Origin: Streptomyces noursei ATCC 11455
GTDB taxonomy: Bacteria; Actinomycetota; Actinomycetes; Streptomycetales; Streptomycetaceae
Direction of reading: 5' to 3'
Length of the DNA: 64,000 bases
NCBI RefSeq assembly: GCF_001704275.1
Contig: NZ_CP011533.1
Location: 2,852,001-2,916,000 of the forward strand
The translations under genes were made by a program, and so were the position numbers. Every line of letters begins with the position of its first letter. Position 1 is the first letter of the stretch. The notes below the pieces were generated by a model. The model did not search any database and was not told the DNA's origin. It was given only the letters and a program-made list of their open reading frames with translations. Of the stretch, positions 1,776 through 51,967 are shown in pieces.

Positions 1776-1798
1776 CAGGGCATTAAGCCGAGGCCGAA
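1776..1798 (-). promoter_or_regulatory. Shared TTC-N8-CTTAA-N3-CCTG element upstream of leuC
   Basis: On the minus strand this reads TTC (1798-1796), eight bases, CTTAA (1787-1783), TGC, CCTG (1779-1776), about 93 bp upstream of the leuC start. The same spaced pattern occurs at 17646-17668, 44728-44750 and 51945-51967, each time pointing towards a cluster gene. It is probably an operator or promoter element for a cluster regulator. The binding protein is unknown. Confidence 0.6.
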
Positions 1799-1845
1799 TG
1801 TTCCAGGTGGCCCCACCCGGGGTGGGGGTAGCCCCGGGGCGCCGA

Positions 1846-1860
1846 GTACAGCTGGCCCCC
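1846..1860 (+). promoter_or_regulatory. Possible weak copy of the GTACAGC..GCCCC element upstream of the hydrolase
   Basis: GTACAGC followed two bases later by GCCCC resembles the core of the elements at 48901-48927 and 51869-51895. It lies about 95 bp before the GTG of the alpha/beta hydrolase. The flanking CCACCATCGC half is missing, so this is a weak match. A short inverted repeat (CCCCACCC-G-GGGTGGGG, 1811-1827) lies beside it in the divergent leuC/hydrolase intergenic region. Confidence 0.25.
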
Positions 1861-1953
1861 CGGTGGTCGGCCTGCTGACGTCACTGTGTTCCCGGCTTCC
1901 CACGGCCAGCATGAATGGCGGCCGGGCCGTGCGCGTCCGGGCGGAGAGGGGAC

Positions 1954-3111
1954 GTGACCGACATGCTCGGGAAGAGGCGGCTGACACGTGTGATCGGGCT
2001 GGTTCTCCTCTCCGTCGTGGGTAGCGGCGGCTGGGTCGCGGGCAGTGCGCAGCAGGCCGTCACGGGCCCGCCGCCGGGCGCCGCCGCCTGGCGCGCGGAC
2101 CGTTCCCTGGGCCGGGCGCTGCCCGATCCGGCGGGCGCCGCACCGCGGGAGGTGGCGGCTTTCTTCGCGCGGCTGGACGGTGTGCGGCGGGAGGAGTTGG
2201 CGGCGCGCCACCCGCTCGTCGTGGGAAATCTCGACGGGGCTCCGCTTTCCCTGCGCTATCGGGCCAATTCCCTGGCGATAAGGGCCGAGGAGGAGAAAGC
2301 GGAAAGGCGGGGGGACGGGCGGAGTGCCGCACGGTACGCCGCGTTCCTCCGGCCCGGGCGGCGGATTCTCGCCTTCGATCCGCGCGGGCGCGGCCAACTC
2401 GCCGAGGTCTACGGTGATTTGGCGGCGGCGCGGCGGACGGCCGTCGTCGTGCCCGGTTCCGATATCGATCTCGGGTCGTTCGAGCGGGCCGAGGATCCGT
2501 ACGGCACGCCGTCCGGTATGGCGCGGGCGTTGCGCGCCAAGATGGCCGAAAACACCCCTGGCACGCCGACCGCGGTGATCGCCTGGGCGGGGTACACGAC
2601 CCCGGTCGGCCTGGGCCCGGATGCCGCCACCGGCCGCCTGGCCGAGGCCGGCGCGCCCCGGCTGAACCGCCTCCTGGCCGGTCTGCGGGCCCTCGGCCGG
2701 CCGGCGCCCAGCGTGTTCTGCCACAGCTACGGCTCAGTCGTGTGCGGGGTGGCGGCACCGGACACGGCCCCGGGCGCCGTCGCCGACCTGGTCTTCCTCG
2801 GCAGCCCCGGCACCCGCGCGGACACCGCCGCCGGTCTGCGCAGCACCGCCCGCGTCTGGGCGGCCCGGGACGCCACCGACTGGATCGGCGACGCCCCGCA
2901 CACCCGCCTGCTGGGTCTGGGCCACGGCACGGACCCCACCGATCCCGCCTACGGTGCGCGCCGCGTCTCCGCCGACCGCGCCCGGGGCCACACCGGCTAT
3001 TTCGCCCCCGGCACCGATTCCCTGGCCAACTTCGCCGACATCACCCTCGGCGCGTACCACGCCGTCCGCTGCGCCGCCGACCGGCAGGAGTGCCGCCATG
3101 ACCTCGGTTGA
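1954..3111 (+). CDS. Exported alpha/beta hydrolase (DUF1023-like)
   Basis: A 385-residue protein. It begins with a short basic stretch and a hydrophobic segment (residues about 9-30, around VIGLVLLSVVGSGGWVAGS), which looks like a signal peptide or anchor. The second half is a DUF1023-type alpha/beta-hydrolase fold with the nucleophile elbow CHSYGS and a downstream FLGSPGTRAD segment. The GTG at 1954 is preferred because GGAGAGGGG lies just upstream; an ATG three codons later is possible. The 3' end overlaps the following acyltransferase by 14 bp, so the two are probably translationally coupled. The substrate is unknown. The family is common and poorly characterised in Streptomyces. Its place between leuC and the tryptophan-supply genes does not show whether it belongs to the peptide pathway. 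Confidence 0.75.
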   Translation: MTDMLGKRRLTRVIGLVLLSVVGSGGWVAGSAQQAVTGPPPGAAAWRADRSLGRALPDPAGAAPREVAAFFARLDGVRREELAARHPLVVGNLDGAPLSLRYRANSLAIRAEEEKAERRGDGRSAARYAAFLRPGRRILAFDPRGRGQLAEVYGDLAAARRTAVVVPGSDIDLGSFERAEDPYGTPSGMARALRAKMAENTPGTPTAVIAWAGYTTPVGLGPDAATGRLAEAGAPRLNRLLAGLRALGRPAPSVFCHSYGSVVCGVAAPDTAPGAVADLVFLGSPGTRADTAAGLRSTARVWAARDATDWIGDAPHTRLLGLGHGTDPTDPAYGARRVSADRARGHTGYFAPGTDSLANFADITLGAYHAVRCAADRQECRHDLG

Positions 3112-4327
3112 TCTCCTGGCCCCGGTGCGCCGTGCGGTCGCGGCGGTGGACGCCCGCACGCCGGTCGGCCGGGACCGCGCCCTGGACGGTCTGCGGGCCC
3201 TCGCCCTGCTGTCCGTACCGACCGGCCACTGGCTGCTCGGCGGCTTCACCCGCGACGCGGACGGGGCCCTGCACAACGCCAGCCCGCTGACCGCCCTCGG
3301 TTTCCTCGCGCCGCTGAGCTGGGTGCTGCAGATGCTCGGGGTCTTCTTCCTGGTCGGCGGCCACGCGTCGGTGCTCTCGTACCGGCGGGCCGCCGCGCGC
3401 GGCACGTCCACGGCCCGGTGGCTGCGCGGGCGGCTGGCCCGCCTGGGCCGTCCGGTGGTCGGGGTGACGGCGGTTTGGGCCGCCTTGCTGCCGCTGCTGT
3501 CCGTGCTGGGGGTGCCGGCCGCCACGCTGCGCACCGGGGCGACGCTGGTCGTCCAGCCGCTGTGGTTCGTCGGCGTCTATGCGGGAGTGACGGCGCTGAC
3601 CCCGTTCTGCGCGCGGGCCGCGCGGCGGCTGGGCGGCTGGGCGGCGGCGCCGCTGCTCGGCTGCGTCGCCGTGGTCGATCTGCTGCGCTACGGGCCGTCC
3701 GCGGCGGCGATGCCCGGTTGGCTGGGTCTGCTCAACCTCCTCCCCGGGTGGCTGTTCGCCTATCAACTCGGCGTGAGCTGGGGCGAGAAGCGGCTGGGGA
3801 AGCGGGCCGGGTGGGTGCTGCTGGCCGGTGGCGCCGCGCTGTTCGCGCTGCTGCTGCTCGTCTTCCACTACCCCGCGAGCATGGTCGGCGTCCCCGGCCG
3901 GGACCGCACCAACTCCCATCCGCCGTCCCTCCTCGTCCTGGCGCTGGCCGCCGCCCAGTCCGGTGCCGCCGTGCTGCTGCGCGACCGCCTCGGCCGGCTG
4001 CTGCGCCGCCCGGCCCTGTGGGCGCCGGTCGTCCTGATCAACCTCTCGGCGATGACGGTCTTCTGCTGGCACCAGACGGCGATGCTCGCCGCGGCCGTGC
4101 CGGGCTCCTTCTTCGGCGCGGTGCCGGGGCTGACCACGGCGCCCGACGGCCTGCCGTGGATCGTGGCCCGGCTGGCGTGGTTGCCCGTCTTCGCGGCGGC
4201 GCTGCTCCTGATCGGGTGGTACGCGCGGCGCTTCGAGGCCCCCTGGACCGGGGCGACCAGGGGGCGGCGGGCCGCCGCCGCGCTGCTCGCCACCGGGTTC
4301 GCGCTCTACACGGTCGCCGGGTGGTGA
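3098..4327 (+). CDS. Integral membrane acyltransferase (acyltransferase-3 family-like)
   Basis: A 409-residue multispanning membrane protein with about ten hydrophobic segments. The N-terminal region has the R-D-x-x-x-D-G-L-R-A-L-A-L pattern (GRDRALDGLRALALLSVPTG) typical of acyltransferase-3 and OafA-like membrane acyltransferases. The ATG at 3098 has a GCAGGAG site upstream. It overlaps the stop of the upstream hydrolase, which argues for a two-gene operon. This family usually acylates sugars, lipids or small molecules at the membrane. Here it could modify the peptide, a lipid, or nothing related to the cluster. The sequence does not decide. Confidence 0.7.
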   Translation: MTSVDLLAPVRRAVAAVDARTPVGRDRALDGLRALALLSVPTGHWLLGGFTRDADGALHNASPLTALGFLAPLSWVLQMLGVFFLVGGHASVLSYRRAAARGTSTARWLRGRLARLGRPVVGVTAVWAALLPLLSVLGVPAATLRTGATLVVQPLWFVGVYAGVTALTPFCARAARRLGGWAAAPLLGCVAVVDLLRYGPSAAAMPGWLGLLNLLPGWLFAYQLGVSWGEKRLGKRAGWVLLAGGAALFALLLLVFHYPASMVGVPGRDRTNSHPPSLLVLALAAAQSGAAVLLRDRLGRLLRRPALWAPVVLINLSAMTVFCWHQTAMLAAAVPGSFFGAVPGLTTAPDGLPWIVARLAWLPVFAAALLLIGWYARRFEAPWTGATRGRRAAAALLATGFALYTVAGW

Positions 4328-4347
4328 CCGCGCGGCCCGGCGCGCGG
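4328..4347. terminator. Short GC hairpin between convergent genes
   Basis: A perfect 7-bp stem CCGCGCG/CGCGCGG with a 6-nt loop fills the 23-bp gap between the acyltransferase stop and the DAHP synthase stop. It is a plausible bidirectional terminator, but short stems are common at this GC content. Confidence 0.4.
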
Positions 4348-4350
4348 GGG

Positions 4351-5700: not shown

Positions 5701-5823
5701 CGCGGGCCTTCGCTAGGGGTGGGAACCGACGGAATGCGCCTGGATTCGCTGCGGTGGGCGCCACTGCCGAAGGGATTCCAACCCGTCGCGTGGAACGCGG
5801 TCAAGCGCCCTCGGAGTGGACTG

Positions 5824-5847
5824 CTGCGGCATCGCCCAATTGGTCTG
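5824..5847 (+). promoter_or_regulatory. Candidate operator shared with the trpD/MocR promoter (aroH-trpE intergenic)
   Basis: CTGCGG (5824-5829) followed by AATTGGTCTG (5838-5847) recurs at 9421-9438 upstream of the MocR regulator and trpD. A second CCAATTGG palindrome lies at 5912-5919 in the same region. The site is about 95 bp upstream of the trpE start and 124 bp upstream of the divergent DAHP synthase start. It is the best candidate for a site bound by the MocR-type regulator. Confidence 0.45.
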
Positions 5848-5941
5848 GTCGCCGTCCGCGGCGAAATGCTTGGCTTGCGGAATGGAATGCAGAAGTGGAG
5901 CCGCCGCCCCGCCAATTGGCGTGCGGGTGTCGGTGCGGGAA

Positions 5942-9368: not shown

Positions 9369-9409
9369 TTCTTCTTCCCCTTCTTCTCCCCGGCGATGGG
9401 CGGAAAGTG

Positions 9410-9438
9410 GACCGGAATTGCTGCGGTGAATTGGTCTG
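9410..9438. promoter_or_regulatory. Candidate MocR operator between the regulator and trpD
   Basis: An imperfect dyad reads GACC-gg-AATT, nine bases, AATT-GGTC. It contains CTGCGG (9421-9426) and AATTGGTCTG (9429-9438), the same pair of words seen before trpE at 5824-5847. A further AATTG lies at 9464-9468. The site lies 41 bp from the regulator start and 52 bp from the trpD start, a position suited to autoregulation and co-control of trpD. Confidence 0.5.
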
Positions 9439-9490
9439 TCGGCCGGTTTACCGCGGACCCCAGAATTGCCGTGAGGAAAGGGGGCCACCG

Positions 9491-16012: not shown

Positions 16013-17563
16013 TCAGTGCATCTGGGCGAGGTACTCGTACTGGCTGGGCAGCCGCTTGGCGATGTCGCGGGCCTGGTCCTTGAGCCGCTGGATCTCCTGC
16101 GCGGCGCGCGAGTCGTCCATGTGCGCGAGGACGGGCGCGGGCTTGACGTCGAGGCCGCCGAGGCCGAGCAGCATCGCGTGGTAGGAGTAGGGCTCGAACC
16201 CGTGGTAGTGCGGGAAGACCGTCTCCTCGGTGGGCAGCTTGGACTGCCACGCCTCCAGGCGGGCGGCCAGCCCGTCGGGGAGTTCGCGGGTCTTGGCGTC
16301 CCGCCAATAGGCGTTGTCGTTGCGGGCCGCGGTGCGGTAGTGCAGCACCAGGAATTCCCGTACGCCGTCCATGGTGTTGGCCACGACGCGGTTGTAGGAA
16401 TCGCGGAGCTTCGGGTCCCACTTCGCGTCCGGGAAATGCTTGACGAGTTCCTCGATGCCCTGCTGGATGAAGAAGATGCCGGTCGATTCCAGCGGCTCGA
16501 CGAATCCGCTGGAAAGGCCGATGGCCACGCAGTTGTTGACCCAGGAGTGCCGGCTGCGGCCGATCCGCATGCGGATGTGATTGGCCTCGACGTCCGCGGC
16601 CTGCGGGCCGACGAATTCGCGCAGGGTGCGCTCGGCCTCTTCGGGGGTGGTGTAGTCGCTGGCGTAGACGTAGCCGGTGCCGATGCGCTCGAAGAGCGGG
16701 ATCGTCCAGATCCAGCCGGCCTCCTGCGCGGTGGCGGTGGTGCACGGGCGCAGCCGGGTGCGCTCGGCGTCGTGCGGGACGCGCAGCGCCACCGCGCTGT
16801 CGTTGGGCAGGGTGTTCTGGTACGAGACGAACGGTTCGCCCAGCGTCTTGTTGAGCAGCAGGCCGGCGAAGCCGGTGCAGTCGACGAACAGGTCGCCGGC
16901 CAGCTCGCCGTGTTCGCGGGTCTTGAGATGGCTGATCCAGCCGCGCTCGTCGCGGACGACCTCCACCACGTCGTCCTCGATGTGCCGGGCACCGCGCGTG
17001 GTGGCGTACTCGGTGAGGAAGTCGGCGAGCAGCGACGCGTCGAACTGGTAGGCGTAGGGGAACTGGGTGGCCTGTTCGGAGAGGGTGGAGCGCTCCGGGT
17101 CCATGGAGCCGCCGTGCTCGACGAAGTCCTGCTCGAAGAGGGTGCCGTCCAGGTAGCGCGGCGAGCGCATGGTGTCGCAGATCTCGGACATCAGGAAGAC
17201 GTCCTGGTCGAAGCGGTCGCTGGGCTTCTTGTTCAGCCACCACTCGGTGAGCGGGAAGCCGTCGACGACCCGCAGCCGCTCGAAGGGGTGGTAGAAGTAG
17301 TGGCCCTTGGCGCGCCAGTTCTCGAAGCGGATGCCGAGCTTGTAGGTGGCGTTGCACTTCGGCATCCAGTCGTTCTCCGAGAGGCCGAGGTAGTCGAAGA
17401 AGTGGCGCACGGTGGAGAACGTGGCCTCGCCGACGCCGATCGTTTTGATCCGCTTGGACTCGATGACGGTGACATTGACGCTCGTACCGAGCGCGGCCCG
17501 CAAATACGCGGCGGTCATCCAGCCCGATGTGCCGCCGCCGACAATAACTACGCTGGAAAGCAC
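16013..17563 (-). CDS. FAD-dependent tryptophan halogenase (PyrH-like)
   Basis: A 516-residue flavin-dependent halogenase. Seen: the FAD-binding GGGTSGW near residues 9-15, catalytic lysine K75 in CNATYKLGIRF, the class-defining W-x-W-x-I-P motif in AGWIWTIPLF, and the chloride/flavin-linker region EPLESTGIFF with the probable catalytic glutamate. It lacks the insertion after GEAT...W seen in 6- and 7-halogenases such as KtzR or RebH. It matches the RFENW...FYHPFERLRVVDGF segment of PyrH, a tryptophan 5-halogenase, so 5-chlorination is likely. The GTG start at 17563 has a GGAGGAATTC site. It is the first gene of an operon with antiporter, flavin reductase, dimethylargininase-like enzyme, leuA and trpC. 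Confidence 0.93.
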   Translation of the reverse strand: MLSSVVIVGGGTSGWMTAAYLRAALGTSVNVTVIESKRIKTIGVGEATFSTVRHFFDYLGLSENDWMPKCNATYKLGIRFENWRAKGHYFYHPFERLRVVDGFPLTEWWLNKKPSDRFDQDVFLMSEICDTMRSPRYLDGTLFEQDFVEHGGSMDPERSTLSEQATQFPYAYQFDASLLADFLTEYATTRGARHIEDDVVEVVRDERGWISHLKTREHGELAGDLFVDCTGFAGLLLNKTLGEPFVSYQNTLPNDSAVALRVPHDAERTRLRPCTTATAQEAGWIWTIPLFERIGTGYVYASDYTTPEEAERTLREFVGPQAADVEANHIRMRIGRSRHSWVNNCVAIGLSSGFVEPLESTGIFFIQQGIEELVKHFPDAKWDPKLRDSYNRVVANTMDGVREFLVLHYRTAARNDNAYWRDAKTRELPDGLAARLEAWQSKLPTEETVFPHYHGFEPYSYHAMLLGLGGLDVKPAPVLAHMDDSRAAQEIQRLKDQARDIAKRLPSQYEYLAQMH

Positions 17564-17645
17564 GAGAATTCCTCCGGAGGTGGTGGTGACGGGCGGGAAA
17601 TACGTCGAGTCGGCGCTCAGCTTTCAGCAGGCCGGGACGGAGTAA

Positions 17646-17668
17646 CAGGCTCTTAAGCGCTGTTGAAA
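17646..17668 (-). promoter_or_regulatory. Shared CTTAA-N3-CCTG element upstream of the halogenase operon
   Basis: The minus strand reads TTT, eight bases, CTTAA (17657-17653), GAG, CCTG (17649-17646), about 83 bp before the halogenase start. Similarity to the NRPS-operon copy (44728-44750) extends beyond the core: both read CTGA, then ATGC or GATGC and TCTTT upstream, and CCTGTT at the end. It splits the long minus-strand gene run into two transcription units. Confidence 0.65.
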
Positions 17669-17732
17669 AGACGCATCTCAGGGCGCATTTCAGGCCACTT
17701 GGCGAAGTCGGCGCAGGGTGTCGCCGGCGCCG

Positions 17733-18248
17733 TCATTCGGCGATCGGGACGACCTTGGGATCGGCCAGCGCGCGGTAGTCCTCGGTGGCCAGCGCCACCG
17801 AGAGGTCCAGGCGGGCCGCGTTGAAATACAGGACGGGCTCGTCCAGCAGCGCCGGGTCGGCCAGGACGGTGAGCTCGTCGTGGAACGAGAAGGGGATGAT
17901 GCTGCCGCTGACGCAGCCGCTCAGGCGCTCGGCGAGCGCGCGGTCGGCCAGCTTGGCCCGGCGGGCGCCGCACTGGGCGGCCACCCGCGGGAGGGCCACC
18001 CGCCGGTCGCCGGGGATGACCGCGAGGACCTGCCGCGCGGCGGGCAGCGCGTCCGGCACGGTGACGATCATGCACTTCGCCGCCGCGGAGAGGGGGTGCC
18101 CGCGCAGCTCGCTGGCCCGTGCGGTGTTCCCTTCGGGCGGGTGCGGGAGCAGCCGGTATCGGGCACCGACCGCGTCCAGGAGCCCCAACAGTCGTGCGGA
18201 TGCCGGGCGTTGGCCCTGCCCGGCATCCGGGGTCGGCCGCGTGGTCAT
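17733..18248 (-). CDS. YbaK/ProX-type aminoacyl-tRNA editing protein
   Basis: A 171-residue free-standing editing domain related to YbaK, ProXp-ala and the insertion domain of prolyl-tRNA synthetase. Such proteins hydrolyse mischarged aminoacyl-tRNAs. The conserved lysine is K58 in AAAKCMIVTVP. A C-terminal GCVSGSIIPFSFH segment matches the family G-x-x-x-P-F pattern. Its ATG overlaps the aminotransferase stop by four bases (ATGA), so it is an integral member of the NRPS operon. The substrate is unknown. In a cluster that makes chlorotryptophan and probably homoleucine, a role in clearing tRNAs mischarged with those amino acids is an attractive inference. A horizontally captured housekeeping gene is the alternative. 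Confidence 0.8.
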   Translation of the reverse strand: MTTRPTPDAGQGQRPASARLLGLLDAVGARYRLLPHPPEGNTARASELRGHPLSAAAKCMIVTVPDALPAARQVLAVIPGDRRVALPRVAAQCGARRAKLADRALAERLSGCVSGSIIPFSFHDELTVLADPALLDEPVLYFNAARLDLSVALATEDYRALADPKVVPIAE

Positions 18249-19357
18249 GTGCCGGCCGGCTGCGGTGCCGGGGCGACGGGCCGCATCCAGGACCAGCGGT
18301 CGGGCAGTTCCCCGCGCTGGATGCCGAAGAGGGCGTCGGAGAGCCGGGTGGTGACCTCGCCGGTGGTGCCGTCGCCGATCGTCCAGCTGCCGTCGGCGGT
18401 GCCGACCTCGCCCACGGGGGTGATCCGGGCGGCGGTGCCGCAGGCGAACACCTCGGTCAGCTCGCCGGCGGCGCAGCCGCGGCGCCACTCCGCAAGGCTC
18501 ATCGGCTCCTCGGCGGCGGGCACTCCCAGGGCGGGGGCGAGGCGCAGCAGCGCGTCCCGGGTCACCCCGGCCAGCAGGCTGCCGGACAGCGGCGGGGTGA
18601 CCAGGCGCGCGTCGCGGCCCGAGCCGTAGACGAAGAAGAGGTTCATCCCGCCCAGTTCCTCCACCCAGCGGCGCTCCACCGGGTCGAGCCAGACGACCTG
18701 GTCGAAGCCCTGTTCCTGGGCCTCGGCCTGGGGCAGCAGGCTGCCGGCGTAGTTGCCGGCGCACTTGGCGGCGCCGGTCCCGCCGGCCGCGGCCCGGGAG
18801 TAGGTCTCGGTGACCTGGACCCGTACCGGGCGCTGGGCGGGGCCGAAGTAGCCCTCGGTGACGAAGGCCATCAGCAGGAAGCGGTACTCGCGGGCCGGGC
18901 GCAGCGCGAGGGTGCGTTCGCTGGCGAACAGCAGCGGCCGCAGGTACAGGCTCATGGCGGGGTCGTCGGGTATCCACTGCTGGTCCTGGGCGACCAGGGC
19001 GTCCACCGCGGTGAGGAACAGCTCCTCGGGCGGTTCGGGCATCATCAGCCGGCGGGCGGAGGCGCGCATCCGGCGGGCGTGCGCGTCCGGCCGGAAGACG
19101 CCGACCGAGCCGGTGTGCGAGCGGAACGCCTTGAGGCCCTCGAAGACGACCTGCCCGTAGTGCAGGCCGACCGTGGCGGGGTCCAGCACCAGCGGTTCGT
19201 AGGGGCGCAGCTCCGCCTCGTGCCAGCCCCGTTCCTCGCTCCATCGGACGGAGACCAGGTGCTCGGTGAAGGCGGAGCCGAAGGCGGTCGAGGTGGTGCG
19301 TTCCGCGCGCTGCGTCGGGGTCAGCGGGCGGGCGACGGGTTTGGACACGAGGTGCAC
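18245..19357 (-). CDS. ilvE: Branched-chain amino acid aminotransferase
   Basis: A 370-residue fold-type IV PLP aminotransferase. Seen: LHYGQVVFEGLKAFR, LFLTAVDALVAQD, YLRPLLFASE, the PLP-lysine segment GAAKCAGNYAGSL, QVVWLDPVERRWVEELGGMN and the C-terminal CGTAARITPVGEV. The start is a GTG at 19357, five nt after AGGAGG. In the NRPS operon it most likely aminates 5-methyl-2-oxohexanoate, the chain-extended leucine precursor, to homoleucine. It may also supply valine. Its 3' end is coupled to the YbaK gene by a four-base overlap. Confidence 0.92.
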   Translation of the reverse strand: MHLVSKPVARPLTPTQRAERTTSTAFGSAFTEHLVSVRWSEERGWHEAELRPYEPLVLDPATVGLHYGQVVFEGLKAFRSHTGSVGVFRPDAHARRMRASARRLMMPEPPEELFLTAVDALVAQDQQWIPDDPAMSLYLRPLLFASERTLALRPAREYRFLLMAFVTEGYFGPAQRPVRVQVTETYSRAAAGGTGAAKCAGNYAGSLLPQAEAQEQGFDQVVWLDPVERRWVEELGGMNLFFVYGSGRDARLVTPPLSGSLLAGVTRDALLRLAPALGVPAAEEPMSLAEWRRGCAAGELTEVFACGTAARITPVGEVGTADGSWTIGDGTTGEVTTRLSDALFGIQRGELPDRWSWMRPVAPAPQPAGT

Positions 19358-19401
19358 TCCGGCCTCCTGTGGCGGGTCGTGCGGATCGGGCGGTCGGGGC
19401 G

Positions 19402-19788
19402 TCAGACCAGCGGGGCGAAGAAGTAGGTGTCCCGTTGGCGGAAGCACTGGTCGTCGTCGCGGTGCACGAAGAAGTCGGCGAATTCCAGGGAGACTTCGCT
19501 GCCGTCCTTCAGGACGCCCTCGAAGACGCCGGTGACCGCGCTGCGCTCGCCCTCGACGAGGAGCGAGGTGACCGTGTGCCGGCCGCGCGCGATGACCCGC
19601 TCGCCGGTGTAGAAGGCGCGCAGGCCCTGGTGGCCGCGCATCGGCGGATAGCCGGGGCGCCGGTAGACGGCGTCCTCGGTGAACAGCGCGATCAGGCCGG
19701 GCACGTCGGCGGCGTCCACCAGGCGGTAGTACTCGCGCACCTTGGCCGCCCTGGCCTCGTGGGCCGGGTCCGTCGGGTCAGTGCGCAC
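19402..19788 (-). CDS. SnoaL/NTF2-fold protein of unknown role
   Basis: A 128-residue protein with the cone-shaped SnoaL/NTF2 fold pattern: KVREYYRLVDAADVPGLIALFTEDAVYRRPG, then a mixed sheet with a conserved ADFFVHRDD segment and a C-terminal RQRDTYFF. The GTG at 19788 is chosen because GGGAGG lies upstream at good spacing; GTG 19797 is possible. It overlaps the 3' end of the hydroxylase gene by 11 bp. Members act as cyclases, hydroxylases, isomerases or binding proteins. Nothing here shows which. Partnership with the neighbouring hydroxylase is a guess. Confidence 0.65.
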   Translation of the reverse strand: MRTDPTDPAHEARAAKVREYYRLVDAADVPGLIALFTEDAVYRRPGYPPMRGHQGLRAFYTGERVIARGRHTVTSLLVEGERSAVTGVFEGVLKDGSEVSLEFADFFVHRDDDQCFRQRDTYFFAPLV

Positions 19789-20794
19789 CGTCGCCACCTC
19801 CCGCGCCCGCCATGGCGACCAGGGTCTGCCGCTCGCCGGTGTAGGGGCGGCGGCCGTGCGAGACCAGCAGGTTGTTGACGATCAGCAGGTCGCCGCGGAC
19901 CCAGGGGAAGGCGTACAGGCAGGTCTCGAACGCGTCCCGGACGGTGTCCATCTCCTCGTCGGTGATGGGCGTGCCGTCGCCGAAGTAGGCGGCGCGCGGC
20001 ATGTCCTCCTCGTCGAACATCTCGGCCAGCGCCTCCCGGGTGGCCGGGGGCAGGTTGGAGGTGTGGAAGAGGTGGGCCTGGTTGAACCACGACTCGCGGC
20101 CGCTGACCGGGTCGGTGACCAGGGCGGGCCGGCGGTGCCGGGTCCGCAGGCCGTCCTCGGTCCAGGTGAACTCGATGCCGTGCTGCTTGCAGTAGCGCTC
20201 GACCTCGGCGCGGTCCTCGGTCTGGTACGACTCCTGCCAGGTCAGGCCCATGCCCTCGCGGTAGGCGCGGGTGTAGAGCACGCCCTGGTCCCGGAAGCGG
20301 GCCACCAGGTCGGCGGGCAGGTGGTCCAGCAGCGCACGGGTGTCGGCGAGGGGGGTCTCGCCGCCGGTGTCGGCGGCGACGATCGAGGCGAAGAACAGCC
20401 AGCGCGGGTAACTGTGCGCGTACGCGCTCTCGTTGTGCTGGACGATGGTCTGGTTCGCCGGGTACTCGGTGGAGGTGTAGACGTTGCCGTCGACCTGGCT
20501 GCGGGGCGTGGAGCGCTCGGTGTAGCTGAGCAGTTCGCCGCCGATCCGGGCCGCGACGTCGTTGAGCAGCGCGGCGTTGTCGACCACGCCGCGCACCAGC
20601 ACCGCGCCGTGGGTGTCGAGGGCCTCCATGAGGTGCGGGCGCTGTTCGGTGGCCCAGCGGGCGATGTCCGCGGTCGCGCCGGGGGCGTCGGCCCGGAAGC
20701 CCTCGTAGACGACGACTTTGGTGTGGGCCGTGCCCTCCAGGCGGCCGGGCCGGCCGCCGAGGAGGGTCAGGTGCTCGGGCAGTTCCTCAACCAT
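19778..20794 (-). CDS. SyrP/TauD-like Fe(II)/2-oxoglutarate-dependent amino acid hydroxylase
   Basis: A 338-residue non-heme iron dioxygenase. The iron triad is H120 and E122 in VQHNESAY and H313 in VSHGRRPY, with a following arginine (GERQ) for 2-oxoglutarate. The H-N-E form and the PRWLFFASIVAADTGGETPLAD segment place it with SyrP (aspartate beta-hydroxylase) rather than AsnO or VioC, which have H-T-E-D. It lies directly after MbtH in the NRPS operon. The likely reaction is beta-hydroxylation of a carrier-bound residue. Asn on module 6 is the first candidate, the basic residue on module 5 the second. ATG 20794 is preferred over GTG 20824 by ribosome-site spacing. Confidence 0.85.
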   Translation of the reverse strand: MVEELPEHLTLLGGRPGRLEGTAHTKVVVYEGFRADAPGATADIARWATEQRPHLMEALDTHGAVLVRGVVDNAALLNDVAARIGGELLSYTERSTPRSQVDGNVYTSTEYPANQTIVQHNESAYAHSYPRWLFFASIVAADTGGETPLADTRALLDHLPADLVARFRDQGVLYTRAYREGMGLTWQESYQTEDRAEVERYCKQHGIEFTWTEDGLRTRHRRPALVTDPVSGRESWFNQAHLFHTSNLPPATREALAEMFDEEDMPRAAYFGDGTPITDEEMDTVRDAFETCLYAFPWVRGDLLIVNNLLVSHGRRPYTGERQTLVAMAGAGGGDGAH

Positions 20795-20816
20795 GGTGCT
20801 GTTCCGCCTCTCTTGC

Positions 20817-21029
20817 TCAGGCACCCATGGCCTCGATCAGGGACTTGGGGCGCATGTCGGTCCAGTTCTCGTTGACGAATTCCAGGCATTCCTGGCGCAG
20901 TTGCGGGCCGAAGGCGACCTCCCAGCCCTGGGGGACTTCGGCGAAGCTGGGCCACAGGGAGTGCTGTCCCTCGGTGTTGCGGAGCACCAGGTAGAAGGCT
21001 TCGTCATTCTCGAATGGGTTGGCAGACAT
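20817..21029 (-). CDS. mbtH: MbtH-like protein
   Basis: A 70-residue MbtH-family chaperone that binds and activates NRPS adenylation domains. The family signature is complete: N-P-F-E-N...Y-x-V-L-x-N-x-E-x-Q-x-S-L-W-P, then PQGWEVAFGP, then W-T-D-M-R-P-x-S-L. It is 36 bp downstream of the second NRPS gene and has a GAAAGGAAAA ribosome site. Confidence 0.97.
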   Translation of the reverse strand: MSANPFENDEAFYLVLRNTEGQHSLWPSFAEVPQGWEVAFGPQLRQECLEFVNENWTDMRPKSLIEAMGA

Positions 21030-21065
21030 GGGATTTTCCTTTCGTTGCGTCCGGAATTTCGGAGA

Positions 21066-24000
21066 TTAGCCGAGGAGGGTGCGCAGTTCGCGCAGGAAAC
21101 CTTCACCGAGCGCGGCGATGGTCTTTTCGTGGTGCACGGCGCGGGAATAGCGCAGGGTGAGGCGGAACCGCCCGCCGTGCACCGCTCCCGCGAGGTCGAG
21201 CAGATGGGGCCGCTCGCCCCGGTCGCTCTGCTGCGCGGCGGCCGGCAGGACGGCGGCGAAGGGCCCCGCCGCCCGGTCGCCGCCGGGGGTCTGGTCGAAG
21301 CGGCCAAGGTAGTTGAAGACCACCTGCGGCGTGTTCGCCGAGGTCAGCGCGGGTGCCTTGGCGAGGTACCGCAGCGCGCCGTAGCCCCGGCCGCGGCCGG
21401 GGACGGCCCGCAGCAGGCGTGCCACCGCCTTGGCCCTGGCGCGCGGGGCGTCGCCGGTGGACCGGGGCAGATGCACCGGGTAGAGGGTGGTGAACCAGCC
21501 GACGGTGCGGGAGAGGTCCAGGTCGTCGAATATCTCGTCGCGGCCGTGGCCTTCGAGGTCGACCGTGATGCCGTCGCCGCCGGTCCATTCGGAAAGCGTT
21601 GCACCGAGGGCGGTCAGCAGAAGATCTTCGGTACGGACCCGATGGGCGCCCGGCGCGGTCCGCAGCAGCGCTTCGGTTTCTATTTCGGTCAGTTCGACCG
21701 TGAATTCCGCCTCGGACGATACCGTATGCGCGCCGTCGGCATCCACCGGAAGGGCCGCGGAATTCCGCGCGGTCTTCTCCAGTATTCCCTCCCAGTAGGG
21801 GAGTTCGCCGTCGAGGGTGCCGGCGTGGTCGCGCAGCCGCGTCGCCCACTGGGCGAAGGACGTCGGTACGGGCGCCACCCGGATCGGCTCGCCCGTGCGC
21901 GCCTGGGCGTAGGCGGCCTCGACGTCGGACAGCAGGATGCGCAGCGAGACCGCGTCGGTGACCAGGTGGTGGGCGACCAGCAGGAGCCGGGAGGGGTGCG
22001 CCGTACCGCCGTCGAAGAGCACCGCCCTGGCCACCGGCCCCCGGGCGAGGTCCAGGGAGGACTGGGCCGCCGTCACGGCGCGGTCGAGCGTCGCGGCCAG
22101 CGCGTCCGCGGCGACGCCGGAGACGTCCTCCCGGTCGAACGGCACCGGCACGGTGTCCGGTTCGGGCCGCTGGGTCCGCTCCCGGCCCTCGGGGAACCTC
22201 GTCCGCAGCGCCTCGTGCCGCGCCGTCACGGCCCGGACCGCCGAGGTCAGCGCGGTGTGGTCGGCGTCCGGGGCGAGTTCCAGCAGCACGGACATGTTGT
22301 AGTGCCCCGGCGCGGTGCGGTAGGTGTCGAAGAACCAGTGCTGTATCGGGGTGAGCGGCGCGGGCCTGGTGGCCGCCGGCGCCCCGGGCCGGACCTCGTC
22401 CGCCGTCCGGGCCGCGTCCCGCCCGGCGTCGATCAGCTCCGCCAGTGCCCGCACCGTGTTGCTGCGGAAGACGTCCTTCGAGGTGAGCGGCAGGCCGGCG
22501 CGGCGGATCCGGGCGACCAGCTGGATGCTGAGGATGGAGTCGCCGCCCAGGTCGAAGAAGCCGTCGTCCAGGCCGACGTGGTCCAGGCCGAGCAGCTCGG
22601 CGAAGACTCCGGCGAGCAGCCGCTGGGTGTCGGTGGTGGGCTCCTCGGCGGGGGCCGGTGCCGCGGCGGCGGCCTCCGGTGCGGGCAGCGCCGCGCGGTC
22701 GACCTTCCCGTTGATGGTCAGCGGCAGTTCGGGCAGCACCACCAGGGCCGAGGGGACCATGTACTCGGGCAGGACGCGGGCGGCGAACTCCTTGAGCGCC
22801 GCGGCGTCGGGCGCCGGACCGTCGGGCCGCGGCGCCGCATAGCCGACCAGCCGCAGCCCGCCGGGCCCCTCGGCCGCGACGACACAGACCTGGCCGACGC
22901 CGGGGGCCGCGGCCAACGCCGCCTCCACCTCGCCCAGTTCGATCCGGTGCGCCCGGATCTTGACCTGGTCGTCGGTGCGGCCCTGGTACTCCAGGCCGCC
23001 GTCGGCGGTCCACCGCACCAGGTCCCCGGTGCGGTACATCCGCTCCCCCGGTTCCCCGAACGGATCGGCCACGAACCGCTCGGCGGTCAGTCCCGGGCGT
23101 CCCAGGTAGCCGCGGGCGAGCTGGGCGCCGGCGACGTACAGCTCACCGGGCACGCCGACCGGGACCGGCCGCAGCAGGGCGTCCAAGACGTGGGCGCGCA
23201 TGTTCCACGACGGGCCGCCGATGAGCACCGGGCCGGACGGCACGGGGTCCTCGGGGGTCAGACGGTGCACCACGCAGCCCACGGTCGCCTCGGTCGGCCC
23301 GTATTCGTTGACGACGGTCGCCCCCCGGTGGCCGCCGCGCCAGGCGTCGAGCGCCTCGCCCAGGAGCTGTTCGCCGCCGACGACGAGGTCGCCGTGGGCG
23401 AGCACCTCGGCGGGCAGCGACTCCAGCAGCCCGACATGGCTCGGGGTGGCCTTGAGGAACGTCGGCACCGGCCGGCCCGCGGCGCCCCACAACGTCGGGT
23501 CCAGGTCCTCCAGGTCGCTGACGTAGACCGTGCCGCCGGCGATCAGCGGACCGAAGAGGGTGGTGACGGTGAGGTCGAAGGAGACCGAGGAGTGCAGCAC
23601 GGCGCCGCCGCGGATGCCGGGGTAGGAACCCTCGCACCAGCGCAGGTAGTTGACGAACCCCCGGTGCGGCACGACCACGCCCTTGGGGCGGCCGGTGGAG
23701 CCGGAGGTGTAGATGACGTAGGCGGCGTTGCCGGGGCGCAGCGGCGCGCGCCGGTCGTCGTCGCAGAGGTCGCTGCCCGGCGCTCCGGCCAGCGCCGCCC
23801 GGGTGGCGGGGTCGTCCAGGACCAGGCACGGGGCGCCCGCTGCCGCCAGCGGGGAAGCGGGGTCAGCGGGTCCGGCGGCGAGTACACAGGCCGGGCGGGC
23901 GTCGGCGAGCAGTGCGGCGATGCGTTCGGCCGGGTAGTCGGGGTCGACCGGGAGATAGGCGGCGCCGGCCTTGAGGACCGCGTACAGCGCGACCAGGAGG

Positions 24001-27000
24001 TCGGCCGACCGGGGCATGCCGACCGCGACGACGTCCTCGGGCCCGATGCCCAGGCTCACCAGGTGGCGGGCCAGGCGGTTGGCGCGCTCGTTGAGTACGG
24101 CGTAGGTGAGGGCCGCGTCGGCGGAGACCACCGCGGGGGCGTCGGGGGTGCGGGCCGCCTGGTTCTCGAAGAGGTCCATGACGGTGGCGTCCGGCAGCGG
24201 GTGGCGGTCGCCGGTCCGGTCCGCGGCGACGCGTTCCCGCTCCGCGGCGGTGAGCATCGGCAGTGCGGCCATGGGCCGTTCGGCCGCGGCGGGTGCGGTC
24301 AGCGCCTCAGCGAGGGTGGCGAGGTGGCCGGTGAGGCGGGCGATGGTGGGCTCGTCGAAGAGGTCGGTGCTGTATTCGACGGAGCCGCGCAGCGCGCCGT
24401 CCTCCTCCCAGTAGTTCAGGGTCAGGTCGAAGAGCGAGAAGTCGCGGGCGAGCGGCTGCTCGGACAACTCCAGGCCGTGCAGCCGCATCGGCTCGGCGGG
24501 CGTGTTCTGGAACGCGATCAGCGCCTGGACCAGCGGCGGGCGGCTCAGATCGCGCTCGGCGACCACCGCGTCCACCACCCGCTCGAAGGGCACCTCGCCG
24601 TGCGCGAAGGCCGCGAGCACGGTCTCGCGCACGGAGTCCAGGAACTCCCCGAACGGCAGCCGCTCGTCGACGTCCTCGCGCAGCACCAGGGTGTTGACGA
24701 AGAAGCCGATCAGGTCCTCCACCTCGCCGCGGTCGCGGCCGGAGTTGAGGGTGCCCACCGCGATGTCGCGCTGTCCGCTCCAGCGGGCGAGGACCAGTTG
24801 GCTGAGCGCGGTGACGGCCATGAAGAGCGAGGCGCCGTGCTCCTGGGCGGCGCGGGCGAGCCCGGCCGTCGCGGCGGGCGACAGCGCGAAGCCGCGCAGG
24901 GCGCCCGCGTAGCCGCGCACCGGCGGGCGGGGCCGGTCGGTGGGCAGCTCCAGCGGCGCCACCCCGTCCAGCTTCCCCTTCCAGAAGTCGAGTTGGCGGG
25001 TCAGCTCGGCTCCGGTCAGGTGGTCGCGCTGCCAGACGGCGTAGTCCGCGTACTGGACGGCCAGCGGGGCCAGGCCGGCGTGGTGCAGCACCTCGGCGGC
25101 GTCTCGGGAGCCGCACTCCAGCGCCGCGTCGTAGAGCGCGCCCAGCTCGCGGGCGACCACGCCCATCGACCAGCCGTCGGTGACGATGTGGTGCAGGGTG
25201 ACGGCGAGGGCGTGCGCGTCGTCGGCGGCCCGGACGAGCAGCGCCCGCAGCAGGGGGCCGGTGCGCAGGTCGAACGGGACGGCGATCTCGGCGCGCAGGG
25301 TGTCCTGGAGTTCCGCCTCGCGGGCGGCGGGGTCGGAGGCGGTCAGCTCGGCGAGCGGGACGGCGACGTCGTAGGGCTCGCCGATGCGCTGTACGGCCTC
25401 GCCGTCGACGGTGTCGAAGGTGGTCCGCAGCACCTCGTGGCGGCGCACCAGGGCGGAGAGGGCGGCGGCCAGGGCCCCGGTGTCCAGGGGGCCGGTGAGC
25501 CGCAGGACGCCGCCGGCGTTGTAGGCGGCGTTGCCGGGCTCGAACTCGTCCAGGAACCACATCCGGGCCTGCGCGAAGGACAGCGGCAGCGCGCGGTCCC
25601 GGTCGGCCGGGGTGATCCGGCCGGTGCGGGCGGCGGCCCGACCCGCGGCGACCTGTTCGGCGAAGCCGGCGATCGTCGGCCGGTCGAAGAGGGCGCGGGC
25701 CGACAGCTCGATGCCGAAGGTCTTCCGCACCCGGGAGATCACCTGGATGCTGAGGATGGAGTTGCCGCCCAGCTCGAAGAAGTTGTCCGTCACGCCGACG
25801 CCGTCGAGCCTGAGCACCTGCATCCAGATGCCGGCCAGCGTCTCCTCCAGGGTGTTGCGGGGGGCGACGCGGGCGGCGGCGGAGGCGAAGAGGGCGGGGT
25901 CGGGGGCCGGCAGGGCCTTGCGGTCGACCTTGCGGCTGCTGGTCATCGGCAGCGCGTCGAGGGCGACGACGACGGTGGGCACCATGTAGTCGGGCAGGGT
26001 GCGGGAGAGCAGTTCGCGCAACTCGGCGGTGTCCGGGGCGGTGGCGCCCGGGTCCGGCACGACATAGCCGATCAGCTGCTTGCCGCCCGCGCGGCCCTCG
26101 CGCGCCACCACCACGGACTGGGCGACGTCCGGGTGTGCGGCCAGCGCCGCCTCGATCTCGCCCAGTTCGATGCGGAAGCCGCGCACCTTGACCTGGTCGT
26201 CGGTGCGGCCGAGGTACTCGATGACGCCGTCGGCGGTCCAGCGCACCAGGTCGCCGGTGCGGTACATGCGCGTGCCGGGCTCGCCGAAGGGGTCGGCGAC
26301 GAACCGCTCGGCGGTCAGCGCCGCGCGCCCCAGGTAGCCGCGGGCCAACTGCGGGCCGGTCAGGTGCAGTTCGCCGGCGACGCCGACCGGGACCGGGCGC
26401 AGCCGGCGGTCCAGCACGCGGATGCCGGTGTTGTGGACGGGGCGGCCCACGACCGGGCGGGGGCTGTCGGCGAGTGTGCACCACAGGGTGTCGACGGTCG
26501 CCTCGGTCGGCCCGTAGAAGTTGTAGCCGACGGTGTCGGGGGCGTCCCGCAGCTGCTGCCACAGCGCCTCGCCGACCGCCTCGCCGCCGAGCATCAGCAC
26601 CGCGGGCCGGTGGTCGTCGCCGGTCAGCAGCCCGGCGGCGAGGACCTGTTCGGCGTAGGTCGGGGTGAGGTCGAGGAGGTCGATGCGTTCCTTGCGGACG
26701 TATCCGACGATCGCCTCGGGGTCGCGCCGCACCTCGTCGTCGATGACGTGCAGCTGGTGGCCCGCGACCATCCACAGCAGGCCCTCCCACGAGGTGTCGA
26801 AGGAGAACACCGCGGTCAGTGCGGCCTTGAAGCGCCGTCCGCCGGCGGCCCGGGCCGCGGGGCGGATGAACTCCGCCTCGTGGTTGCGGTAGAGGTTGAG
26901 CAGCCCGGCGTGGTCGGTCAGCACGCCCTTGGGACGGCCGGTGGAGCCGGAGGTGTAGATGAGGTGCGCGGGGTGGGCCGGGCGCAGCGGGGTGCGGCGG

Positions 27001-28967: not shown

Positions 28968-29026
28968 GCGTGTCTCCTTACGTGCGTACTACGGGTGAGT
29001 GGGTTCTCGGAGGGCTGCCGGCCGGG

Positions 29027-43225
<14,199 letters not shown>

Positions 43226-43282
43226 GCCGAGACCCCATAGAGCGCCGTTGGTGTGGGTGAGGTGTGCCGACCGCCGTCGGGG

Positions 43283-44602
43283 TTAGTGCGGCCGTGCGCC
43301 GTGGGCGCGGCCCGTGTCCCGCAGGAGGGTGCGGCCGCTGTACTGGAGGGCGTGGACCGCGCCGGTGCGCGCGTCGACGGCGAAGCGCCCGAGGAAGGCC
43401 CCGGCCCCCCGGGCGGCGAAGGTCCGCCGGGCCAGCGGCTCGGCCAGTTCCCTTGCCCCGCCCGGGAGTTCCAGTACGAGGTGCGGGCCGTCGAGGCCGA
43501 CCGTCACGGCCAGGTCGCCGTTGCGGTAGGTGCCCGTGCAGTCCGCGAAGGCCGCCGCGCCGGCGGGGGCGCCTCCCTGCGCGAGGGACGGCGGGGGTGC
43601 GGGGCGGTACACGCCGACGTCGATGCCCGCGTCCCGCAGTGCGCCGACCACGGCGTCCCACAGGGCCTGCCCGGTCGGGGAGTTGGTGGTCAGCGCGATG
43701 ACGGTGCCGCGCCGGGGGTGGATCCGCAGGTGACAGGTGGCGCCGTCCAGCGTGCCGTCGTGGCCGAGCCAGCGGTCCTCCGCGGGGCCGAAGTGGCCCA
43801 GGCCCGGGCCCCAGCCGTCGGCCAGCCCGAACGGGTCGGCGCCGGCCGTGGGCCGGGTCGCCTCCCCCAGGGCCGCCGGGTCGGCCAGGTCCGGGCGGCC
43901 CGGCTCCGCGATGTGGAGCAGACCCAGCCGCACCAGGTCGGCGGCGCTGCCCGCGAGCCCGCCGGCGGGCAGCGAGCCGGGTTCGGCGGGCAGCGCGGTG
44001 ATGGCGGTGCCCAGCGGGCGCAGGAGGTAGTCCCGTACCGCCTCGTACCAGGGCAGTCCGGTGACGGACTCCACGACGCGTCCGGCGATGCCGTAGCCGA
44101 CGTTGGAGTAGGAGAAGGTGCCCGGGGCGGGCCGGGCGTCGGCCGGTGCGGCCAGGAAGCCGGTCAGCCAGCGGCGCAGCGAGGAGGCGTCCGCGTCGTC
44201 GTGGTCGGAGGGCAGTCCGGCGGTGTGGCTGAGGAGTTGGCGGAGGGTGGCGGCGAGGGCCGGGTGGTCGCGCCGCGCTTCGGGAACCGTCCCGGCCTCG
44301 GGGAGCCATTCCCGTACGGGCCGGTCGAGGTCCAGGTCGCCGTCGCCGACCAGTTGCAGGACGGAGGTGGCGGTGCACACCTTGGTCGTCGACCCGTAGG
44401 GGAAGGCCGTCGCGGAGTGCACCGGCCGTCCGGCGCCGGGTTCCTCCTCGCCGAACTCCCAGGTCTCCAGCACACCGTGGTGGTGGACGGCCAGCTGTCC
44501 GCCGGCCACGTCGCAGTCACGGGCGAGACGGTCCAGGTCGAGGTCGAGGGGGGAGCCGTCACCGGCGCCGTACCCCGCTGGATCCGCTGAGTCCCCGTGC
44601 AC
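43283..44602 (-). CDS. PBP-type thioesterase (stand-alone peptide macrocyclase, SurE-like)
   Basis: A 439-residue serine hydrolase of the class C beta-lactamase/PBP4 fold. The active site reads S71-x-x-K74 in YGSTTK, Y165-S-N in SYSNVGYG, and H281-D-G in [10 protein letters not shown]-terminal beta-rich (lipocalin-like) domain follows after about residue 350. No signal peptide is present, as expected for a cytoplasmic biosynthetic enzyme. It is the first gene of the NRPS operon, 57 bp before the NRPS start. Proteins of this kind (SurE, the desotamide, mannopeptimycin and ulleungmycin enzymes) offload and cyclise peptides ending in a D-residue or Gly. The NRPS ends in an epimerase and lacks a cis-TE, which fits. 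The GTG start has GGGGGAGGG upstream. A beta-lactam resistance role is less likely. Confidence 0.88.
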
Positions 44603-44689: not shown

Positions 44690-44728
44690 GTTCGAACGGA
44701 AGTCTTCAGGAGGGCGAAAGGTTCGAAC
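44690..44728. promoter_or_regulatory. Pair of GTTCGAAC palindromes in the NRPS-operon promoter
   Basis: Two perfect 8-bp palindromes, 44690-44697 and 44721-44728, lie 31 bp apart centre to centre, near three helical turns. The second abuts the CTTAA element. This geometry suits binding of a dimeric regulator to both sites. Confidence 0.4.
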
Positions 44729-44750
44729 AGGGCTTTAAGTGCAGTGGGAA
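44728..44750 (-). promoter_or_regulatory. Shared TTC-N8-CTTAA-N3-CCTG element upstream of the PBP-TE/NRPS operon
   Basis: The minus strand reads TTC (44750-44748), eight bases, CTTAA (44739-44735), AGC, CCTG (44731-44728), about 126 bp upstream of the thioesterase start. It is the same pattern as at the leuC, halogenase and MFS promoters. The 190-bp intergenic region 44603-44792 is the likely main promoter of the peptide operon. Confidence 0.65.
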
Positions 44751-44792
44751 AGATGCATGTCAGAGGGGCAAAAACGGGATCGGCGGGGTGGC

Positions 44793-50248: not shown

Positions 50249-50907
50249 TCGCCGAGGACAACGCGCTGCTGCGGGAGGGCATGGTCCTGCTGCTGACCAG
50301 CAACGGCCATGAGGTGGTGGCCACCTGCGCGGCCGGCCCCGAGGTGATGCCGGCGCTGCGCGAACACCGCCCCGACGCCGCGGTCCTGGACGTCCGGCTG
50401 CCGCCCAGCTTCCGCGACGAGGGCCTGCGCGCCGCCGTGCAGGCCCGCAAGGAACTCCCCGACCTGCCGATCCTCGTGCTCTCGCAGTACGTGGAACAGG
50501 CGTATGCGGCGGAGCTGTTGGCGCAGGGCGCCCGTGGGATCGGCTATCTGCTCAAGGACCGGGTCGGCCGGGTCGAGCAGTTCCTGGAGGCGCTGGAGCG
50601 CATCGTCAGCGGCGGCACCGCGCTCGACCCCGAGGTCATCACGGAGATCGTCAGCCAGAAGGCCGCCGCCCGCCCGCTGCAGGCGCTGACCCCGCGCGAG
50701 CACGAGGTGCTGGAGATGATGGCGCAGGGCCTGGCCAATGCCGCCATCGCGGAGAAACTCGTCATCACCGAGCGCGCGGTGAGCAAGCACATCCGCGGCG
50801 TCTTCGACAAGCTGGGCCTGCCGCCGGAGGGCGGCAGCGTGCACCGCCGGGTGCTGGCCGTGCTGGCGTTCCTGGGGAACAGCGCGCCGGAGAGCCCCGC
50901 GGTCTGA
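50236..50907 (+). CDS. NarL-family response regulator
   Basis: A 223-residue regulator with receiver domain (acidic pair in VIAEDNALLREG, phosphoacceptor D52 in AVLDVRLPP, conserved lysine in YLLKDRVG). It also has a C-terminal LuxR-type helix-turn-helix (LTPREHEVLEMMAQGLANAAIAEKLVITERAVSKH). The GTG at 50236 lies inside the kinase gene with GTGGAG upstream. A strong terminator follows its stop. It is the only classical transcription activator seen inside the cluster, so it is the first candidate for binding one of the repeated promoter elements. Confidence 0.93.
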   Translation: MRIVIAEDNALLREGMVLLLTSNGHEVVATCAAGPEVMPALREHRPDAAVLDVRLPPSFRDEGLRAAVQARKELPDLPILVLSQYVEQAYAAELLAQGARGIGYLLKDRVGRVEQFLEALERIVSGGTALDPEVITEIVSQKAAARPLQALTPREHEVLEMMAQGLANAAIAEKLVITERAVSKHIRGVFDKLGLPPEGGSVHRRVLAVLAFLGNSAPESPAV

Positions 50908-51513: not shown

Positions 51514-51553
51514 GGTGCTGCTCTCCTCGGAGGGTTCGGAAGGTCCGTACGGC

Positions 51554-51763
51554 TCAGTCATCGGCGGTTCCGGCCCGCTGCCAGCGCACCACTCCCCAGA
51601 GCAGTGCGATGGCGTCCAGGGTGAAGCCCGCGATCATCACGGTGGTGTGCGTGTCCCCGGTGACCACATGGGAGATCACCGACGTCAGCATGGCGCCCGC
51701 GAAGAAGACGAACAGCGGGGGAACGATCCAATGGGCGCCGCGCTCGCGGTGCGTACGTGCCAT
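51554..51763 (-). CDS. Small two-helix membrane protein
   Basis: A 69-residue protein with two hydrophobic helices (about residues 13-33 and 41-60) joined by a short HVVTGDTHTT loop. The ATG at 51763 follows GGAGACC. It is divergent from the MFS gene and upstream of the lipoprotein gene by 40 bp, probably one transcript. The function is unknown. Confidence 0.6.
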   Translation of the reverse strand: MARTHRERGAHWIVPPLFVFFAGAMLTSVISHVVTGDTHTTVMIAGFTLDAIALLWGVVRWQRAGTADD

Positions 51764-51868
51764 GAGAGGTCTCCAGTCGTACCCGTCGTCTCGCACGGCC
51801 CGAGCCGCGCTGTCTGCCTCCATGCTGTCCGAGCGACCGTCGACCGGTCAGTACACCGCGCCCCCGAA

Positions 51869-51895
51869 CCGGGGTGGAGCCTGCACCACCATCGC
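51869..51895 (+). promoter_or_regulatory. 27-bp element shared with the kinase promoter (MFS side)
   Basis: CCGGGGT, two bases, AGCC, one base, GC, one base, CCACCATCGC. It differs from 48901-48927 at four positions and lies 132 bp before the MFS start, in the divergent region with the small membrane protein. Confidence 0.5.
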
Positions 51896-51944
51896 GGGTT
51901 CAGCACCTGGACACGGCGCCCGATCCCCCTTCCCACCAGGGGAG

Positions 51945-51967
51945 TTCCGCCCACCCTTAAACACCTG
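51945..51967 (+). promoter_or_regulatory. Shared TTC-N8-CTTAA-N3-CCTG element upstream of the MFS-thioesterase operon
   Basis: TTC (51945-51947), eight bases, CTTAA (51956-51960), ACA, CCTG (51964-51967). This is the only plus-strand copy, and it points to the only plus-strand biosynthesis-linked operon of the NRPS half. It ends 33 bp before the MFS ATG, closer than the other copies. Confidence 0.6.

Follow-up and report, generated by a model that had tools for sequence, protein, structure and literature searches.

The window analyzed here is a stretch of 64,000 nucleotides, positions 2,852,001-2,916,000 of the single-contig genome of Streptomyces noursei ATCC 11455 (9,815,884 bases). It carries a gene cluster that, judged by its genes, is of the noursamycin type, in the desotamide family. 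A preliminary description of the window had noticed a short element, given as a 23-bp TT(C)-N8-CTTAA-N3-CCTG, before four operons of this cluster. The subject here is that element, together with DsaA, a protein encoded just outside the window that is the best candidate to bind it.

Pattern search returns the core of the element, CTTAA-N3-CCTG, four times in the window, at the places and on the strands first reported, with no fifth copy there. None of 100 dinucleotide shuffles of the window contains a match. Eight bases upstream of the core stands TTC in the copies before the leuC-like gene, before the thioesterase of penicillin-binding-protein type (PBP-type), and before the MFS transporter; the copy before the tryptophan (Trp) halogenase has TTT. 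Each copy is followed by a weak -10 sequence.

1776..1810, minus strand: element before leuC, sequence CCACCTGGAACATTCGGCCTCGGCTTAATGCCCTG
1754-1749, minus strand: weak -10 of the leuC element, AAGCCT; predicted transcript start near 1742
17646..17680, minus strand: element before the Trp-halogenase operon
17624-17619, minus strand: weak -10 of the halogenase element, AAAGCT; predicted transcript start near 17612
44728..44762, minus strand: element before the operon of the PBP-type thioesterase and nonribosomal peptide synthetase (NRPS) genes
44706-44701, minus strand: weak -10 of the thioesterase element, AAGACT; predicted transcript start near 44694
51933..51967, plus strand: element before the MFS-thioesterase operon, the weakest of the four
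51989-51994, plus strand: weak -10 of the MFS element, CAGCAT; predicted transcript start near 52001

The claims that these copies do not arise by chance, that they lie in promoter regions, and that they point to downstream operons all hold. The element is genuine and well defined, it belongs to the promoters of a pathway regulon, and it is wider than first described.

Anatomy and spread of the element

The alignment of 38 sites from this and other clusters extends the element to ACCTGCGA-N-TTTC-N8-CTTAA-N-GACCTG. The element is longer than 23 bp and is followed by a -10 at fixed spacing. Among the letters first reported, TT, CTTAA, and the T of CCTG show little or no variation across the sites; the C that ends TTC and the G that ends CCTG do vary. 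Counted from the first T of TTTC, a -10 of the form nAnnnT lies at offset 45 in 31 of the 38 sites (27 of 31 after removal of near copies) and at offset 46 in six; any other offset between 30 and 57 has at most four. Both this -10 and the upstream ACCTGCGA lie outside the 23 bp that were used to collect the sites, and neither is therefore a circular result.

The fixed spacing would in turn place the element at about -57 to -34, a position typical of activators, upstream of a poor -35. The likely gene start, chosen by script, falls between -10 and 106 nt from the predicted transcript start at all 38 sites. A script flagged nine sites as lying in a possibly coding open frame. In one case this frame is on the opposite strand; in the other eight it is on the same strand and is perhaps an upstream extension of the downstream gene's own frame.

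How specific is the element to its cluster? Over the whole genome of S. noursei, the core occurs six times, four of them in the window, compared with 25 + 15 occurrences of a reversed control pattern. With a 62-bp matrix, the two copies outside the window receive scores of -15.2 and -11.5. The longer form TTY-N8-CTTAAN3CCTG has four exact matches in the genome, all in the window. A matrix made from 29 sites of other clusters, none from the window, from Streptomyces sp. L-9-10, or from genome G317, ranks the window's four copies first (41.3, 37.8, 32.5, and 23.9), with the next candidate at 8.1; in 0.78 Mb of control loci it scores no higher than 13.1.

A sequence-only profile of 63 positions, built from 28 sites, was run on 29 genomes (20 cluster genomes and 9 controls), with 150 first-look candidates scored in each. 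Among the 150 of 8044 candidates scored in the own genome, four reach E<=1, and these are the four copies in the cluster alone, which bears out the idea of a pathway regulon. The profile gave 38 matches with E<0.01 in 17 of the 20 cluster genomes, although many of these were training sites and one, on contig C178 of G213, could not be placed; the cluster genomes without such a match are G292, G075, and G318. The nine control genomes gave no match with E<0.01, the best being 0.026.

A reading of the regulon as private to this cluster is not supported, because halogenase clusters elsewhere have the element too. The comparison is nearly all within one genus, where related genomes are, of course, not independent. 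Across 392 genus genomes, TTY-N8-CTTAAN3CCTG has 17 matches, the four in the window and 13 elsewhere. Six of the 13 are in halogenase clusters. Five of these stand directly before the halogenase gene, 88-108 bp from its start (G329, G177, G213, G156, and G037), and the sixth precedes an NRPS-type gene (G199). The remaining seven look like chance, with scores no higher than 13.5 on the 62-bp matrix.

The halogenase, which has matches in 43 of the 392 genomes, served as the tracer for a wider survey; the PBP-type thioesterase was dropped as a tracer, with matches in only four genomes at E<=1e-60. Halogenase genes were found at 46 places, and the removal of the own copy and of G343, G258, and G239:C208 left 42 other loci. 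A site scoring at least 14 lies within 250 bp upstream of the Trp-halogenase in 15 of these. The remaining 27 have no site of that score in the 250 bp upstream, the best being 12.1.

Close relatives keep the element at more than one promoter. S. noursei A-2-1 (PBP-type thioesterase 97% identical) has the same four sites. In Streptomyces sp. L-9-10 (thioesterase 61%), CTTAA is kept in both homologous promoters, CTTAAATCCTTG and CTTAAAGGGCTG. Genomes G036 and G048 keep the element at the leuC, halogenase, and thioesterase promoters, and G317 has degenerate forms at its thioesterase, MFS, leuC, and antiporter promoters. Elsewhere, further sites precede TauD-type (L209), ABC (L235), and antiporter (L236, L237) genes, as well as genes that we take to be trpC-like (L203, L210), flavin reductase-like (L236, L237), and NRPS (L181, L206) genes.

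In G156 and G037, the halogenase locus (L106, L107) and a locus with dsaA, the flavin reductase-like gene, and the antiporter (L236, L237) are on different contigs, with the element at both. These may be split pathways tied by one operator.

DsaA as the candidate regulator

The preliminary description had named the response regulator encoded at 50236-50907 as the protein to assay for binding. Instead, the element tracks the presence of DsaA. The dsaA gene, on the far side of leuC and 0.76 kb outside the left edge of the window, was not in the sequence on which that description was based. Its product has 310 residues, and its best gene-named relative is DsaA of Streptomyces scopuliridis (71% over 304 aligned columns); the orthologue in L-9-10 is 72% identical. 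In a tree of 33 proteins, from which seven loci missed by the script are absent, a desotamide group of six that includes S. scopuliridis DsaA has support 100/99. The generic paralogues form one well-supported group, and members from halogenase clusters stand together, although G017 is among them.

When the proteins of the 42 halogenase loci are clustered, an ArsR-like winged-helix protein is present in 9 of the 15 loci with the motif versus 1 of the 27 without (p 9.4e-5). A DsaA profile raises these counts to 10 of 15 and 3 of 27. The three loci in the latter group all have sites of some kind: G292 has a weak one, G150 has one before another gene, and G317 has them at other genes. The five motif loci without DsaA in 20 kb have one elsewhere in the same genome, and in G037 and G156 the element stands at both the halogenase locus and the distant dsaA locus.

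A model of DsaA (P0003) from a 71-row alignment, with a mean predicted local distance difference test (pLDDT) score of 87.1, has a C-terminal winged helix. Foldseek matches it best to the Protein Data Bank structures of NolR (4omz, E 4.9e-4), HlyU, and SmtB (E to 2e-3), with BigR also among the best matches of this domain. By this model the domain is an ArsR-type winged helix. None of the 50 matches shown extends over more than about 110 columns of the 305 residues, and the N-terminal region has no counterpart among the matches listed. The protein scores below the curated cut-offs for the ArsR/SmtB family (NCBIfam HTH_metalloreg, 30.7 bits versus 55 for the own DsaA; Pfam HTH_20, 24.3 versus 27 for the relative in G329). 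Thus, DsaA would work like an ArsR fold yet stand outside formal membership of that family. Classical ArsR/SmtB-fold regulators are about 100 residues long; DsaA carries an N-terminal extension of some 220 residues, and the geometry of its element suggests activation.

DsaA-like proteins of some kind are present in 354 of the 392 genomes (E<=1e-15), and the promoters of distant paralogues offer a second line of evidence. The regions upstream of 21 DsaA-like genes were read in all. All 12 distant paralogues (L238-L241, L244-L251), several of them near copies rather than independent cases, carry in their own promoter TTTC-N8 followed by CTAAA, CTGAA, CCAAA, or CCGAA, with a -10 (CATACT or CAGGCT) at offset 45-46. 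This suggests that the distant paralogues regulate themselves. Six of them (L240, L244, L245, L249, L250, and L248, the own genome's second DsaA-like gene, upstream of 9209) show an 18-bp near-palindrome, TTTC-N10-(G/A)AAA. It lies about 100 bp before the gene's own start, and its spacing to the -10 is that of the element.

Here, then, the element is probably the operator of a DsaA-type, ArsR-fold regulator that turns on four operons together. Most likely, a DsaA dimer would contact TTTC and CTTAA about one helical turn apart, assisted by the flanking ACCTGCGA and CCTG bases. Bound at about -57 to -34, it would recruit RNA polymerase to promoters whose -35 is poor and whose -10 keeps a fixed distance. 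The four operons that it would jointly turn on are those to make, supply, chlorinate, and export a cyclic hexapeptide, presumably of the noursamycin type. The same pair of protein and operator would serve other chlorotryptophan-peptide clusters in Streptomyces.

Several observations weigh against this. The 38 sites were gathered with a matrix begun from the window's own four, which makes the 23-bp part of their alignment partly circular. Nine cluster-type dsaA genes, the own one included (L147, L148, L192, L232-L235, L242, L243), have no site in their own promoter. Genomes G175, G311, G137, G318, G291, and G017 have DsaA-like genes with no clear CTTAA site, only variants or nothing, and the site in G292 is, as noted, weak. 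The halogenase of G317 (L152, start 10814), the closest other halogenase at 83%, has a promoter without the element. A SARP (Streptomyces antibiotic regulatory protein) is also encoded in seven motif loci, and the kinase and response regulator pair in nine genomes with the element. ArsR-fold proteins are, of course, mostly repressors.

Some of the exceptions have features of their own. G175, G311, and G137 have ASKH in place of ASQH in the recognition helix, as well as a TTTA-N8-GTAAA-like sequence at comparable positions; the pairing of changed helix with changed site is suggestive only. In G318 and G291 (thioesterase 42%, DsaA 39%, kinase and regulator 52-58%), there is only a variant, TTTC-N8-GTCAA or GGCAA, before the MFS gene.

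Could the NarL-type response regulator, which is DsaN-like, bind the element as a dimer centred near -42? Its gene is inside the cluster, the DsaMN pair is reported to be essential for desotamide and is also encoded in the ulm and nsm/cur clusters (PMC7459860), and relatives of the kinase and regulator (54-93%) stand near the element in L-9-10, G317, G036, G048, G156, G037, G329, and G213. Further, the halogenase copy contains around CTTAA a dyad, AACAG-N11-CTGTT, as for a NarL/LuxR dimer, and L-9-10 nearly does; most of the 38 sites lack it, and the dyad was rejected as the motif. Where the regulator is 72-78% identical, the site is present in 0 of 16 loci (best score 7.0). In G116, with an 81% regulator, kinase, and ABC genes, there is no orthologue of DsaA (best 46%, partial) and no site in the 40.8-kb contig. 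Conversely, G177, G199, and G251 have the element with no close relative of the regulator within 60 kb. A distant paralogue could still act, with matches in 388 of 392 genomes at E<=1e-50, yet binding by the response regulator is unlikely. It may act on the cluster all the same, because the desotamide pair is reported as essential.

Quite unlikely as well is that some other regulator, encoded elsewhere or differing from cluster to cluster, binds the element while DsaA merely travels along. The SARPs are the obvious choice in some clusters: of the 15 motif halogenase loci, 7 encode one at 64% or more, and clustering finds a SARP in 6 of 15 versus 0 of 27. Still, no SARP relative was found in the window or in 50 kb of flanking DNA, which is why a SARP operator was dropped as a reading, and a SARP is also missing from four motif halogenase loci (L167, L171, L153, L154) that were retrieved with DsaA or its genome copy. 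The generic DsaA paralogues, moreover, have the same geometry in their own promoters. Operators of SARPs of the AfsR type resemble the element in having upstream contacts about one helical turn apart at promoters of antibiotic clusters. Their repeats overlap the -35, close to the -10; the element ends near -34.

Chance recurrence, or a part of the promoter of an alternative sigma factor, might be read from a short core in four copies with weak -10s, but it is hardly credible given the shuffles and given that in other clusters the -10s at the fixed place are of the ordinary TAGNNT form, which fits the vegetative sigma factor, and the element stands well upstream of a spacer of normal length.

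What was known before? A review reports that deletion of regulatory genes including dsaA abolishes desotamide (PMC7459860, citing doi 10.1007/s00253-020-10414-4), and the available part of its text notes little insight into the regulation of desotamide-family clusters. The S. scopuliridis cluster, with its DsaA and DsaMN, belongs to the same family as the one here; no binding site or regulon is named for its DsaA in that part of the review. In the bottromycin cluster, BtmL is likewise a cluster-situated modulator with a predicted ArsR/SmtB-like winged helix (PMC7113386); as described there, its ArsR-like part is N-terminal, a DUF2087 domain is present, and it has no link to this operator. Searches of open-access literature listed no title or abstract opening that describes the operator, although subscription journals may hold a description.

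A broader proposal is possible, and is offered tentatively. DsaA-type proteins may form a class of ArsR-fold pathway activators that share a single promoter code (TTTC-N8-CTTAA, spanning about -57 to -41, with a -10 at fixed spacing). They would stem from the autoregulating paralogue of most Streptomyces genomes and would have been recruited repeatedly to chlorotryptophan-peptide pathways, the N-terminal region perhaps sensing a pathway compound. If so, the code could serve to locate such clusters, to decide which genes belong to them, and to awaken those that are silent.

With an operator defined and a candidate regulator named, a direct test is possible. Halogenase clusters of many species bear the same code, which helps to assign pathway genes even where these stand apart, as in G037 and G156. 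The code offers a handle for activating silent chlorotryptophan-peptide clusters, and activation by an ArsR-fold protein from upstream of -34 would add to the known roles of the fold.

Genes of the cluster

Family searches identify leuC-like, 3-deoxy-D-arabino-heptulosonate 7-phosphate (DAHP) synthase, chorismate-binding, TrpD-like, isopropylmalate-synthase-like, Trp-halogenase, and aminotransferase genes; TauD-type, MbtH, NRPS, beta-lactamase-family (PBP-type) thioesterase, and FtsX genes; and a kinase with its response regulator, an MFS transporter, and a thioesterase.

190..1683, minus strand: leuC-like gene (aconitase family), 497 amino acids with the start at 1683
11457-12993, minus strand: isopropylmalate-synthase-like gene, after the halogenase on the same strand
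14717-15973, minus strand: Na/H-exchanger-family gene, after the halogenase on the same strand
16013..17563, minus strand: Trp-halogenase
18245..44602, minus strand: PBP-type thioesterase, two NRPS genes, MbtH, TauD-type, SnoaL-type, and class IV aminotransferase genes; an operon, judging from spacing
29027-43225, minus strand: NRPS gene within that run
49037-50248, plus strand: sensor kinase
50236-50907, plus strand: NarL-type response regulator
52001-53344, plus strand: MFS transporter
53348-54085, plus strand: type II thioesterase

The noursamycin-type assignment follows from this gene content (NRPS, stand-alone PBP-type thioesterase, Trp-halogenase, leucine genes, and a DsaMN-like pair), from the 97% identity of the A-2-1 thioesterase, and from the review cited above (PMC7459860).

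The start of leuC was moved from 1758 to 1683, because 1758 is upstream of the predicted transcript start. Left of leuC, outside the window, come an open frame of 236 codons, presumably LeuD-like, and then dsaA. The MFS gene begins at its predicted transcript start (52001), and its mRNA may be leaderless. The DAHP synthase, chorismate-binding, GntR/aminotransferase, and TrpD-like genes (4351-10585) have no element; in other clusters, the element stands before trpC-like genes. A block of FtsX, ABC, kinase, and response regulator genes (regulator 76-78% identical to that of the window) recurs at L091, L092, and L094-L104, with no halogenase or PBP-type thioesterase match nearby.

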